Positions 11,097 to 15,451 of a DNA stretch of 64,000 nucleotides are shown piece by piece. The position numbers were made by a program, and so were the translations under genes. Below the pieces are notes generated by a model that did no database searches, was not told the origin of the DNA, and saw nothing but the letters and a program-made list of their open reading frames with translations. This DNA is from an uncultured Pelagibacteraceae bacterium (GTDB lineage: Bacteria; Pseudomonadota; Alphaproteobacteria; Pelagibacterales; Pelagibacteraceae). The number at the start of each line of letters is the position of its first letter. The stretch's first letter is position 1. Where the stretch lies: the NCBI GenBank assembly GCA_902550805.1, contig CACDAL010000004.1, positions 27,177 through 91,176 of the forward strand, read 5' to 3'.

Positions 11097-11648
11097 ATGG
11101 AACTTGTAAAAACAATATCTAATAATAAACTAATTAAATCGATTTTAGTTGTATTTATTGGTTCAATTTTATTAACAATATCTGCTAAAATAAAAATTCC
11201 TTTCTACCCGGTTCCGATGACAATGCAAACTTTTGTTGTATTATTTTTAGGAATCGCGTTTGGATATAAAATTGGAGTAGCTAGTGTATTGCTTTATCTT
11301 ATTGAAGGAATTGCAGGACTGCCTGTATTTTCCAACTCTCCGGAAAAAGGTATAGGAATTGTATATTTTGTAGGGCCAACTATGGGTTACTTAATTGGTT
11401 TTGTTTTTTCATCTTTTCTTGCAGGCTACTTTAAATATAATTCAAATTATTTTGTTAATTTTATAAAAATATTATTTTCTACTTCAATAATTTATATTTT
11501 TGGAGTGTTATGGCTTGGAAATTTAATCGGCTGGGATAAACCAGTATTACAATTGGGTGTTTTTCCATTCTTGCTTGCAGAGATATTTAAAATGTTGCTT
11601 CTAGTTTTATTAATTAAAAAAATAATTAATTTTAGAAATTTTATTTAG
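11097..11648 (+). CDS. bioY: BioY-family biotin transporter
   Basis: KIPFYPVPMTMQTFVVLFLG, EGIAGLPVF, GPTMGYLIGF motifs. Confidence 0.92.
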   Translation: MELVKTISNNKLIKSILVVFIGSILLTISAKIKIPFYPVPMTMQTFVVLFLGIAFGYKIGVASVLLYLIEGIAGLPVFSNSPEKGIGIVYFVGPTMGYLIGFVFSSFLAGYFKYNSNYFVNFIKILFSTSIIYIFGVLWLGNLIGWDKPVLQLGVFPFLLAEIFKMLLLVLLIKKIINFRNFI

Positions 11649-12204
11649 GAGATCTTTTTGATAAGATTCTTTGCAAAGTTCTTCTGTGCATTTTCAATCG
11701 TCTAGCAGTCTCAGATACATTTCTATTACATAATTCAAAAACTCTATGAATATGTTCCCATTTAACTCTATCTGCTGACATTGGATTTTCAGGTGGTGCT
11801 GCTTTTTTATTAGGATCTGCTAATAATGCTTTTTCAACATCGTCTGCATCTGCTGGTTTGGAAAGATAATCAATTGCACCTTCTTTTATTGCTAATACAG
11901 CCGTTGGAATATTTCCATACCCCGTTAACATTACTACCCTGCTGTTAGAATTATTTTTTTGAATTTCTTTTACAACCTCCAAACCATTTCCATCGTTTAA
12001 TCTCAAATCTACAACAGCAAAGGCAGGTTTTTTAGATTTTACTGAATCGATTCCAATTTTTACACCCTCAGCTTGTGAAACTAAAAAGCCTTTTTTCTCC
12101 ATAGCCCTAGCTAATCTTTCCCTAAATGGGTTATCATCATCTACTATAAGTAGCGATTTATCTTCAAATTCACTTATTTTATTAATTTTTTCTATTTCAG
12201 GCAT
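11641..12204 (-). CDS. regA: Response regulator RegA/PrrA/ActR-like
   Basis: Receiver LLIVDDDNPFRERLARAMEKKGF and Fis-type HTH RVFELCNRNVSETARRLKMHRRTLQRILSKRSP. Confidence 0.9.
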   Translation of the reverse strand: MPEIEKINKISEFEDKSLLIVDDDNPFRERLARAMEKKGFLVSQAEGVKIGIDSVKSKKPAFAVVDLRLNDGNGLEVVKEIQKNNSNSRVVMLTGYGNIPTAVLAIKEGAIDYLSKPADADDVEKALLADPNKKAAPPENPMSADRVKWEHIHRVFELCNRNVSETARRLKMHRRTLQRILSKRSPK

Positions 12205-12298
12205 AAACGTTATATGGAAGTAATTTTATTAATTTCAATGGAATTATTTACTTTACTTTAAGCCACTTATCCCCTAAATGCTGAATTTATATTAAATT

Positions 12299-12325
12299 TG
12301 CACACTTAATGTGCAGTTTTTTTTT
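12299..12325 (+). promoter_or_regulatory. Hairpin plus T9 in the leader of the ODC gene (putative attenuator, 5' stabiliser or operator)
   Basis: Direct read: TGCACA-CTTAA-TGTGCA then G and nine T, 25 bp upstream of the ODC ATG at 12351, in a divergent intergenic region. Confidence 0.55.
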
Positions 12326-12350
12326 GTTAAATTTTTTTTGAGGGAACAAA

Positions 12351-13529
12351 ATGCAAAAATTTAAGTCAGTTGATGATCTGGTTAATCAACTGAAACCAAC
12401 AGAACCTGTATATTGTATTAGAATAAATTCGATACAAGTAGCTTCAAAATTTTTTCAAAAGAAATTTCCCGGAAAGGTTCTTTATGCAGTAAAAACTAAT
12501 CCTCATCCTATAGTTTTAAAAACAATTGTCGAAAGTGGAATTAATAACTTTGATGTAGCTTCAATAAAAGAAATAGAAGTAATTAAAAATATCAACCCTA
12601 ATGTAAAATGTTCTTTTATGCACACTGTAAAAAGCAGAGAATGCATTAAGGCAGCATATTTCAAACATGGAATAAAAACATTTTCTTTAGATACTAAAGA
12701 TGAGTTAATCAAAATCATAGAAAGTACAAACCAAGCAAAAGACTTGGAATTATTTGTTAGAATTTCAGTTTCAAATGAACATGCTGAAATAGACTTATCA
12801 AAAAAGTTTGGAGCAATAAGCTCTGAAGCTGCTGGATTGTTAAGACTTGCAAAACAATATTCTAAAAAAATAGGGTTAAGTTTCCATGTTGGCTCTCAAT
12901 GTATGCATCCGATATCCTATTCTAAAGGTATTTTGGAAATTGGAAATATTATTAAAAGAACTAAAATTGTTCCAGATATAATTAATATTGGCGGTGGATT
13001 TCCAACAATTTATCCTGATTTAGTTCCGCAGTCATTACAAAATTATTTTGAAGAAATAAAAAAATCATTAAAAAATTTAAAAATTGAAAAAATGCCAGAA
13101 GTGATTTGCGAACCTGGCAGAGCAATTGTTGCTGAAAGCGGTTCAACAATTGTTAGGGTCAATTTAAGAAAAAAACAAAAATTATATATTAATGATGGTA
13201 CATACGGAACTCTTTTTGATGCTGGTGTTCCAAACATTGTATATCCTTCAAGACTAATTGCCAATGGAAGAGTTGTTTCAAAAAAATTTACTTCATTTGA
13301 TTTTTATGGACCCACATGTGATAGTATGGACTATATGAAAGGTCCTTTTATATTGCCAAACAATATTAAAGAAAACGACTATATTGAATTAGGACAACTG
13401 GGAGCTTATGGTTTGACATTTAGAACTCACTTTAATGGATTTTATTCAAACAATATTTGTAAAGTAGAGTGTGAGCCAATAATGACAATGTATGACAAAG
13501 AGACTAAAAATGAGTTTCTTGTTGCTTAA
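12351..13529 (+). CDS. Ornithine decarboxylase (PLP fold III)
   Basis: VLYAVKTNPHPIVLK, FHVGSQ, NIGGGFP, CEPGRAIVAESGS, FYGPTCDSMD motifs of eukaryotic-type ODC / fold III decarboxylases. Confidence 0.88.
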   Translation: MQKFKSVDDLVNQLKPTEPVYCIRINSIQVASKFFQKKFPGKVLYAVKTNPHPIVLKTIVESGINNFDVASIKEIEVIKNINPNVKCSFMHTVKSRECIKAAYFKHGIKTFSLDTKDELIKIIESTNQAKDLELFVRISVSNEHAEIDLSKKFGAISSEAAGLLRLAKQYSKKIGLSFHVGSQCMHPISYSKGILEIGNIIKRTKIVPDIINIGGGFPTIYPDLVPQSLQNYFEEIKKSLKNLKIEKMPEVICEPGRAIVAESGSTIVRVNLRKKQKLYINDGTYGTLFDAGVPNIVYPSRLIANGRVVSKKFTSFDFYGPTCDSMDYMKGPFILPNNIKENDYIELGQLGAYGLTFRTHFNGFYSNNICKVECEPIMTMYDKETKNEFLVA

Positions 13530-14572
13530 TGTCAGATAATAAAAACTTAACTCATAACAGAAAAAAAGACCTTTTAAGCAAAGAAGTAAAACACATAGAT
13601 ATTACTTCTTTTGATGCAAGAAAAATAATTTCTTCGATGGAAAAAATGTCTTTTGTTTCAAGAGAAACTGCTAATGCAGCAAATATTTTCAATGAAATGC
13701 TCAAAGATAATAACTGTACTATTTTTTTAACTTTAGCTGGATCTACATCTGCCGCTGGATGCATGCATGTATATAGAGATATGATTAAATACAATATGGT
13801 TGATGCTATTGTGGCTACCGGAGCTTCTATAATTGATATGGACTTTTTTGAAGCTTTGGGATTCAAACATTATCAAGGTTCTCAATTCCAAAATGACACC
13901 GAGTTAAGAGAAAACTATATAGATAGGATATATGATACTTACATCGATGAGAATGAATTGCAAATGTGTGATAAAACAATTGGTGAAATTGCAGATAATT
14001 TAGAACCAAAAAGCTATACATCTAGAGAATTTATTAATGAAATAGGAAAATATTTAAAATCAAATTCCAAAAAAAAAGAATCTTTAATTGAAATGGCATA
14101 TGATAACAACGTGCCTATATTCTGTCCGGCTTTTACAGACTCTAGTGCAGGTTTTGGTTTGGTAATGCACCAAGAAAGAAACCCAAAAAAACACATTACT
14201 ATAGACTCTATAAGAGAATTCCGTGAATTAACTGAAATAAAAATAAAATCTAAAGGGTCTGGATTGTTTATGATTGGTGGAGGCGTTCCAAAAAATTTTA
14301 TTCAGGATACAGTAATCTGTGCAGAACTTTTAGGTGAAGAAGTTGATATGCACAAATATGCAGTACAGATAACAGTTGCTGATTCAAGAGATGGAGCCTG
14401 CAGTAGTTCAACTTTAAAAGAAGCAAGTTCTTGGGGAAAAGTAGATGTTACAAAAGAACAAATGGTTTTTGCTGAAGCTACTAGCGTTTTACCATTAATA
14501 GTTAGTGATGCTTATCATAGAGGTGAATGGAAGAATAGAGATAGAAAAAATTTCAATAACATATTCGGTTAA
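13529..14572 (+). CDS. Deoxyhypusine synthase family protein (possible homospermidine synthase or other aminobutyl/aminopropyl transferase)
   Basis: TLAGSTSAAG, VATGASIIDMD, FCPAFTDSSAGF, EASSWGKVDV...FAEATSVLPLIVSDAY; the SWGK lysine corresponds to the deoxyhypusine synthase catalytic lysine context. Confidence 0.9.
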   Translation: MSDNKNLTHNRKKDLLSKEVKHIDITSFDARKIISSMEKMSFVSRETANAANIFNEMLKDNNCTIFLTLAGSTSAAGCMHVYRDMIKYNMVDAIVATGASIIDMDFFEALGFKHYQGSQFQNDTELRENYIDRIYDTYIDENELQMCDKTIGEIADNLEPKSYTSREFINEIGKYLKSNSKKKESLIEMAYDNNVPIFCPAFTDSSAGFGLVMHQERNPKKHITIDSIREFRELTEIKIKSKGSGLFMIGGGVPKNFIQDTVICAELLGEEVDMHKYAVQITVADSRDGACSSSTLKEASSWGKVDVTKEQMVFAEATSVLPLIVSDAYHRGEWKNRDRKNFNNIFG

Positions 14573-14575
14573 AAA

Positions 14576-15451
14576 TTGAACTACTTGTCTAACAAATTGG
14601 GTTTTCTCGGAATTGATAATAAATTCAATTTTAAAGAAAAAGTTGTTGTTGTCCCTTTTGGTTTGGAAAAAACAGTTAGTTATGGTGGAGGCACGAAGAA
14701 TGGACCTAAAGAAATTATTAAAGCTTCACATCAAGTAGAGCTTTATGATGAGGAGCTTAATTGTGAGCCTTATAAAAAAATTGGAATCAAAACTTTAAAA
14801 TCGTTTAAAATAGATAGAAATATAAAAAAAGCTTTAAATCAAATTTCAAAAATTAATGAAGAAATATTAAAAAAAAAAAATTTTCCCTTAACTCTTGGAG
14901 GCGAACACTCAATAACACCCGGTTGTATAGCTCCATTTGCTAAAAGGTATAAAAATTTATGTCTATTACACTTTGATGCGCATGCCGATCTAAGAGAAAG
15001 CTATAATGGAGAAAAATTTTCACATGCATCAGCAATTAGAAGATGTTTAGATTATAAAAATGTATCTGTCATATCCTTTGGAATTAGAAATATTTCTAAA
15101 AATGAAATAACTTATTTAAAAAAAAACTCTTCAAGAATAAATATTTTTTGGGCAAAAGATAAAAATAAATGGAATTTAAATAAATTCAAAAAAATGATTA
15201 AGAATAAAAGTGTTTACTTAACATTTGACGTTGATGGACTAGATTCAAGTATTATGCCAGCCACAGGTACTCCAGAACCTGGAGGACTTCTTTGGGATGA
15301 AACTTTAGGAATAATTAAGATAGCGGCAAAAAATTCAAATATAGTAGGAGCTGATATTAATGAATTATCACCAATAAAAGGATTTAACTCTTACAATTTT
15401 TTAGTTGCAAAATTAGCATATAAAATTTTAACTTATAAATTTTTATACTAA
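14576..15451 (+). CDS. speB: Agmatinase/ureohydrolase family protein
   Basis: LTLGGEHSITPG, LHFDAHADLRESYNG...SHASAIRR, TFDVDGLDSSIMPATGTPEPGG metal-binding motifs; TTG start. Confidence 0.88.
   Translation: MNYLSNKLGFLGIDNKFNFKEKVVVVPFGLEKTVSYGGGTKNGPKEIIKASHQVELYDEELNCEPYKKIGIKTLKSFKIDRNIKKALNQISKINEEILKKKNFPLTLGGEHSITPGCIAPFAKRYKNLCLLHFDAHADLRESYNGEKFSHASAIRRCLDYKNVSVISFGIRNISKNEITYLKKNSSRINIFWAKDKNKWNLNKFKKMIKNKSVYLTFDVDGLDSSIMPATGTPEPGGLLWDETLGIIKIAAKNSNIVGADINELSPIKGFNSYNFLVAKLAYKILTYKFLY

Follow-up and report, generated by a model that had tools for sequence, protein, structure and literature searches.

A hairpin directly followed by a run of thymines lies upstream of an ODC gene in a SAR11 genome, between two divergent genes, which raises the question of what such a structure does there. 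The window, i.e. the whole stretch of 64,000 nucleotides that was analysed, contains this hairpin, here called P1, in a gap of 146 bp (12205-12350) that by direct reading separates the RegA-like and ODC genes. The ODC ATG is at 12351, 25 bp past the end of the first T-tract. A preliminary description had given the hairpin with its nine thymines, the coordinates, the 25-bp distance and the divergent RegA-like neighbour just as we read them, and had put forward three roles: a polyamine-responsive attenuator, a 5' stabilising hairpin or a DNA palindrome.

Judging from the sequences compared here, we consider it very probable that the hairpin is a genuine control element. With slightly less than even confidence, it can be speculated that it is part of a cis-acting leader RNA of the ODC-DHS-agmatinase operon, in which, within this genus, P1 and the U-tract would form a weak promoter-proximal intrinsic terminator, i.e. 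a leaky attenuator.

The polyamine locus

The genes next to the gap are the following.

11641-12204, minus strand: RegA/PrrA/ActR-type response regulator gene, the divergent neighbour (NCBIfam NF033791, ActR/PrrA/RegA, 308 bits, above the cut-off; Pfam)
12351-13529, plus strand: ODC gene, gene 1 of the operon, PLP-dependent ornithine/arginine/DAP decarboxylase family (Pfam PF02784/PF00278)
13529-14572, plus strand: deoxyhypusine-synthase-like gene, gene 2 of the operon (NCBIfam: 1,9-bis(guanidino)-5-aza-nonane synthase; Pfam)
14576-15451, plus strand: agmatinase/arginase-family gene, gene 3 of the operon (Pfam, NCBIfam)

No NCBIfam model scored above its cut-off for the ODC of the window, and the name is therefore taken from the operon context and from the way in which SAR11 homologues are annotated, as speC (PMC8437039). 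In the genomes of family f2 (G121-G173), a neighbour within the order, only weak ODC matches were found (E about 1e-10 to 1e-18), which suggests that these genomes may be without an ODC of the window's type.

A RegA homologue is located beside ODC in 235 of the 236 ODC loci checked. This adjacency may stem from the gene order of SAR11 in general or point to a regulatory link, and as it is so conserved, synteny cannot separate RegA from the leader.

The leader in the window

The leader is made up of the following elements.

12252-12257, plus strand: predicted -35 element TTTACT (mostly TTTACA in relatives, some TTGACA)
12273-12280, plus strand: predicted -10 region CCTAAATG (CATAAATG, CTTAATTG or TATATG in relatives; conserved 15-17 nt past the -35)
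12298-12316, plus strand: hairpin P1, with 5' arm TTGCACA (12298-12304), loop CTTAA (12305-12309) and 3' arm TGTGCAG (12310-12316)
12317-12325, plus strand: first T-tract, T9, immediately 3' of P1 (T6-T10 across 199 leaders, mostly T8)
12326-12339, plus strand: GTTAAA (12326-12331) and second T-tract, T8 (12332-12339); [AG]T1-3A[AG]A-T7 in 173 of 175 leaders
12340-12344, plus strand: Shine-Dalgarno (SD) GAGGG, by direct reading

In a terminator scan the hairpin is picked up on either strand and the T-tract on the plus strand only, with 2 terminators found against 0.1 in shuffled sequence. The folding z-score of the whole leader is -2.0 in the window. Genes were called by a simple script in 451 kb of this genome, and 82 divergent starts there have a gap of at least 50 bp; a terminator-like hairpin lies within 120 nt upstream of two of them, and P1 is the better scoring of both. 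A pairing of CCCC (12271-12274) with the SD, seen when the whole gap is folded, was dropped because the CCCC sits in the predicted promoter.

A sigma-70 consensus scan of the window gave no good site. In a permissive scan, the promoter-like hexamer TTTAC[AT]/TTGAC[AT] occurs in 197/197 leaders of the same genus and in 40/40 leaders of sister genera, its usual distance to the ATG being 96-102 nt. It is followed at 15-17 nt by a TAAATG/TAATTG-like -10, the spacing depending on the hexamer chosen. From these elements transcription would be predicted to start at about 12285-12288, placing P1 at about +12 to +30 and the end of the U-tract at about +39. The TATATT that the preliminary description took as a possible -10 is indeed present at 12288-12293, but it is not the conserved promoter element, and a -35 at a suitable distance from it is missing. 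The consequence drawn from it, a hairpin close to +1 with no space for a classical sensor, holds equally for the promoter predicted from TTTAC[AT]. Only about 10 nt separate the predicted +1 from P1, and no mutually exclusive antiterminator was found upstream of P1 or overlapping it.

Conservation and covariation in the genus

ODC searches gave 175 Pelagibacteraceae leaders, nearly all from the GTDB genus of the window, and the set was later enlarged to 197. The layout of promoter-like CTTTACAT, P1, T-tract, [AG]TTAAA, second T-tract, SD and ATG is present in 173/175 leaders when searched with a regular expression (T5+, [AG], T1-3, A[AG]A, T7), and the two leaders that it misses deviate in the spacer alone. 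The U-tract begins 0-1 nt after the P1 stem and is a T8 in 145/199 leaders. The second T-tract with its TTAAA, which is absent from the preliminary description, is as conserved in the genus as the first one and has no terminator hairpin of its own.

The stems fall into sets without shared sequence (TTGCATA/TATGCAG-like, AAGTTTTTT/AAAAGACTT-like and TTTTAGA/TCTAAAA-like), and in a second clade set the stems are unrelated (AAGUUUUUU/AAAAGACUU and others) with the position of the hairpin unchanged. Among the 27 distinct sequences of the first stem set, standard pairs fill 98.9% of the cells vs 92.9% after shuffling, a percentage that is biased upward because the sequences were picked for carrying that stem. 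The compensatory changes are stronger evidence than the paired cells: both sides have changed in 4 of the 7 pairs, and all four Watson-Crick types occur at the basal pair. The covariation score is 0.336 vs 0.189 in shuffles that keep the relatedness of the sequences (0/500 shuffles as high), and in slid controls the paired fraction drops to 14-56%. Conservation and covariation, by which the preliminary description had suggested judging the hairpin, are both borne out by these comparisons. P1 with its T-tract is not a product of chance, and the decisive evidence for this is comparative.

The predicted folding of P1 has a mean z of -2.8 over 36 dereplicated leaders. Its mean energy is -8.3 kcal/mol (range -13.3 to -1.5), compared with about -16 to -18 kcal/mol for four strong hairpins of terminator type that lie between co-directional genes of the same genome. 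In 121 genomes of the genus the exact double-tract string is nearly restricted to ODC leaders, and the four non-ODC sites that were examined resemble coding sequence; the string TGCATA-N5-TATGC-T7 is found almost exclusively at ODC leaders as well. A regulon sharing the leader element was rejected, as both strings occur almost solely at ODC leaders.

Could P1 instead act at the DNA level, as an operator bound by RegA or by another dimeric regulator? It contains a perfect 6-bp palindrome (TGCACA/TGTGCA), its TGCATA..TATGCA core is kept within one clade set, and RegA is encoded next door in nearly all of the loci compared. However, the core is missing in other clades, where a different stem occupies the same site, and the T-tract follows the palindrome on one strand only. 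Further, over 56 distinct stems 42 G-U but only 3 A-C combinations are found (about 14:1, with G-T and A-C scored alike), whereas a DNA palindrome predicts no strand bias. The wholesale replacement of the stem with retained pairing and the excess of G-U over A-C thus argue for an RNA element and not an operator. Consequently, from the roles proposed earlier, an element acting at the RNA level of the leader is retained while the palindrome is not; the operator reading is disfavoured by these alignments and very improbable.

Leaders of the sister genera

In 12 other Pelagibacteraceae genera, ODC is 59-82% identical to that of the window, and the leaders share the -35-like block and are of similar length. 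Most of these leaders have no U-tract after the hairpin; U-tracts are instead located inside it (e.g. AAGGTTTTTTTT...AAAAAACCTT). The mean folding z is -0.8, and hairpins are plausible here as predicted structures. Genera g41 and g44, with one leader each, resemble the genus of the window. In g32, g33, g34, g36 and g38 a short GUGU:ACAC-type helix was recognised by eye and is partly predicted; it could place the SD in a loop.

A different feature is shared by most of the sister leaders. In 32/40 of them (among L267-L305) an AUG is located exactly 5 nt before the ODC start, i.e. as AUG-NN-AUG, and opens a uORF of 11 or 18 aa that is out of frame and overlaps ODC. The conservation of the uORF peptide is not independent evidence, since the uORF overlaps the ODC reading frame, while the conserved start codon lies in non-coding sequence and can be taken as independent. 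In the genus of the window an AUG at -5 is present in 24/197 leaders, with a uORF of 11-12 aa; the window itself has no second AUG, and ACA is found at -5 (12346-12348). In genus g35 (L287-L290) the aligned ODC start is TTG, there is no AUG at -5 and the leader is diverged. It may be that translational control is the shared theme of the lineage, and that the terminator-like form is derived.

A proposed weak terminator near the promoter

P1 has the stem-loop with a U-tract directly after it by which an intrinsic terminator is recognised, and a covarying stem with an adjacent T-tract is most likely explained by a weak terminator near the promoter. The hairpin would fold as RNA polymerase leaves the promoter, and together with the U-tract it would in a fraction of the rounds act as a weak intrinsic terminator, releasing an RNA of approximately 40 nt. 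Termination would in this way set, and perhaps regulate, the amount of ODC mRNA, and the readthrough transcripts would carry the U-rich ribosome-binding site and possibly a second helix, P2. Any regulation would have to come from outside the leader, as the stretch of about 10 nt before P1 is too short for an aptamer or an antiterminator; candidate inputs would be polymerase factors, an RNA-binding protein, or ions or polyamines that act on the weak hairpin. Neither an antiterminator nor a sensor is visible in the leader, nor is there a conserved leader peptide, and no feature of the leader points to polyamines or ornithine as the signal.

Some observations speak against a terminator. Some stems look too weak to terminate, at least from their predicted energies (the weakest has -1.5 kcal/mol). 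Termination also does not account for the second T-tract, which is conserved to the same degree as the first. Finally, the sister hairpins have no U-tract after them and weak z-scores, so termination cannot be the function in the whole family.

Alternative explanations

A leader that acts on translation or mRNA stability is nearly as likely as a terminator, given that the U-tract is missing in the sister genera and that some other role has to be found for the second T-tract; by itself we would give it about one chance in three. Here, P1 would be a 5' structural element, the U-rich tracts a landing site for the ribosome (S1) or an RNA chaperone, and initiation at ODC would be controlled by P2, in which UUAAAUUUUU pairs with codons 2-5, or in the sister genera by the GUGU:ACAC-type helix and the overlapping AUG-NN-AUG. 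The two strands of P2 are the following.

12327-12336, plus strand: 5' strand of the possible helix P2, TTAAATTTTT, a perfect 10-bp complement of 12355-12364
12355-12364, plus strand: 3' strand of the possible helix P2, AAAAATTTAA, codons 2-5, nearly invariant

The conservation of the second T-tract and TTAAA beside the SD fits this reading, as does the frequent AUG at -5 in the sister leaders, and in reporters of the odc1 motif, compared below, both starts are used (PMC8632094). The 10-bp complementarity of P2 is the second longest among 448 genes examined, and over 37 leaders its predicted pairing probability is on average 0.68 vs 0.29 with the UTR segment shuffled, being higher in 35/37. 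In the window, however, the probability is 0.29 against 0.32 in the control, and P2 leaves the AUG on average more unpaired, not less. Its strands hardly vary, so covariation lends no support, and the codons for KF encode a conserved part of the protein. P2 is downstream of P1 and compatible with its folding; as a predicted helix it is possible. A role of P2 in occluding the SD was retained only as an alternative, in view of this low variation and of the more open AUG. In another gene (G000:C2:32366, in L229), the 5' region and the first codons are complementary over 11 bp (TTTTTTTATTT/AAATAAAAAAA). Against translational control it also counts that the second AUG is rare in the genus of the window and missing in the window, and that this reading alone leaves the U7-10 directly after the hairpin unaccounted for.

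Polyamines stabilise AU helices and triplexes, and the operon makes polyamines. They could thus be sensed directly without a conventional aptamer, by stabilising the weak AU-rich P1 or P2, or a U.A-U triplex formed by both U-tracts and the A-tract of codons 2-3, all three tracts being conserved; termination or initiation would change and ODC would be lowered as feedback. If true, this would be a minimal feedback device on the first gene of polyamine biosynthesis. Yet there is no ligand-binding pocket and no room for a conventional aptamer, the A-tract codes for the conserved KF, and a literature search gave no precedent, making this reading very improbable. The least probable reading is that P1 terminates an independent short RNA or a leader peptide and does not belong to the ODC leader. 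The terminator-like end would fit, but the predicted transcript is only about 40 nt, the small ORFs over P1 in some relatives (ATGAAACTTGCATAC...) are broken by in-frame stops in others, and the window's ATG at 12278 falls in the -10 region. A leader peptide over P1 was also rejected as a candidate, small ORFs such as ATGAAACTTGCATACGTG... being present in some relatives and interrupted in others.

Significance

SAR11 bacteria rank among the most numerous cells of the ocean and have few regulators. They take up polyamines heavily, and PotD belongs to the proteins that they contain in the greatest abundance (PMC8437039). A leader RNA conserved on the first gene of the operon would show how synthesis is balanced against uptake in a streamlined genome. 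Further, a series leading from an odc1-like double start to a terminator-like form would reveal a regulatory RNA that switches its mode of action.

Comparison with known leader RNAs

The odc1 (uORF-25-1) motif is found before alphaproteobacterial ODC genes and has a pseudoknot and an extended hairpin P1 whose right shoulder contains the ribosome-binding site; of its two UUG codons, which are 2 nt apart, the first opens an 11-aa uORF (Brewer et al. 2021, PMC8632094). The leader of the window resembles it in its location upstream of an ODC gene; most sister genera, but not the window, also have a second start 2 nt before the main one that opens an out-of-frame uORF, often of 11 aa. However, the SAR11 leaders that were read directly have no CUGCCCC...GGGGACUUCC...ACCGCAAGGCAG core, no extended P1 and no pseudoknot, and their double starts are AUG, not UUG, while the window has no uORF start. 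The sister leaders are therefore odc1-like in the arrangement of their starts alone and are not members of the motif. An odc1-like UUG-AA-UUG with an 11-aa uORF and the core is present in one non-SAR11 family (G185, G600 and G698; L311, L313 and L312). The ODC of G185, an alphaproteobacterium outside SAR11, is 45% identical to that of the window and has a similar CTTTACAT..ATARATGC block upstream. Rfam 15 gave no match at E<=5 for the odc1-like leader L176 (the same leader as L311), and odc1 seems to be absent from that library.

The speF element (RF00518) is likewise located upstream of alphaproteobacterial ODC genes, those of COG0019 (Corbino et al. 2005, PMC1273637), and the preliminary description had considered the window's leader as a possible reduced counterpart. 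It differs in having a complex structure of 153 positions in a leader of up to 400 nt (PMC1273637). A search with Rfam including speF found nothing in the window or in 17 relatives, and speF was found in 0/61 genomes of the genus, which leaves the proposed kinship without a match. As Rfam also gave nothing at eight distant ODC-like loci, the positive control was taken from a class-wide search, in which the speF model matches in 3/115 Alphaproteobacteria genomes. By these searches and readings, the window's leader is a member of neither odc1 nor speF.

5' terminators are reported to be weaker than 3' terminators (Naville and Gautheret 2010, PMC2965389). With its GC-poor 7-bp stem and T-tract in the 5' UTR, P1 resembles such 5' intrinsic terminators or attenuators (PMC2965389), and it is weaker than the co-directional intergenic terminators. 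It differs from them in having no visible antiterminator fold or sensor and in being unusually near to the predicted start.

As with the candidate structured RNAs described in the main texts of two earlier surveys (Meyer et al. 2009, PMC2704228; Stav et al. 2019, PMC6429828), the leader belongs with leader RNAs that are confined to SAR11. These main texts contain no mention of an ODC or polyamine leader, and, as far as the main texts of the searchable literature go, an ODC control element of this sort appears to be new. The surveys selected intergenic regions that are long and rich in GC, a reminder that AT-rich leaders of SAR11 such as the present one can be overlooked when RNAs are searched for by GC content.
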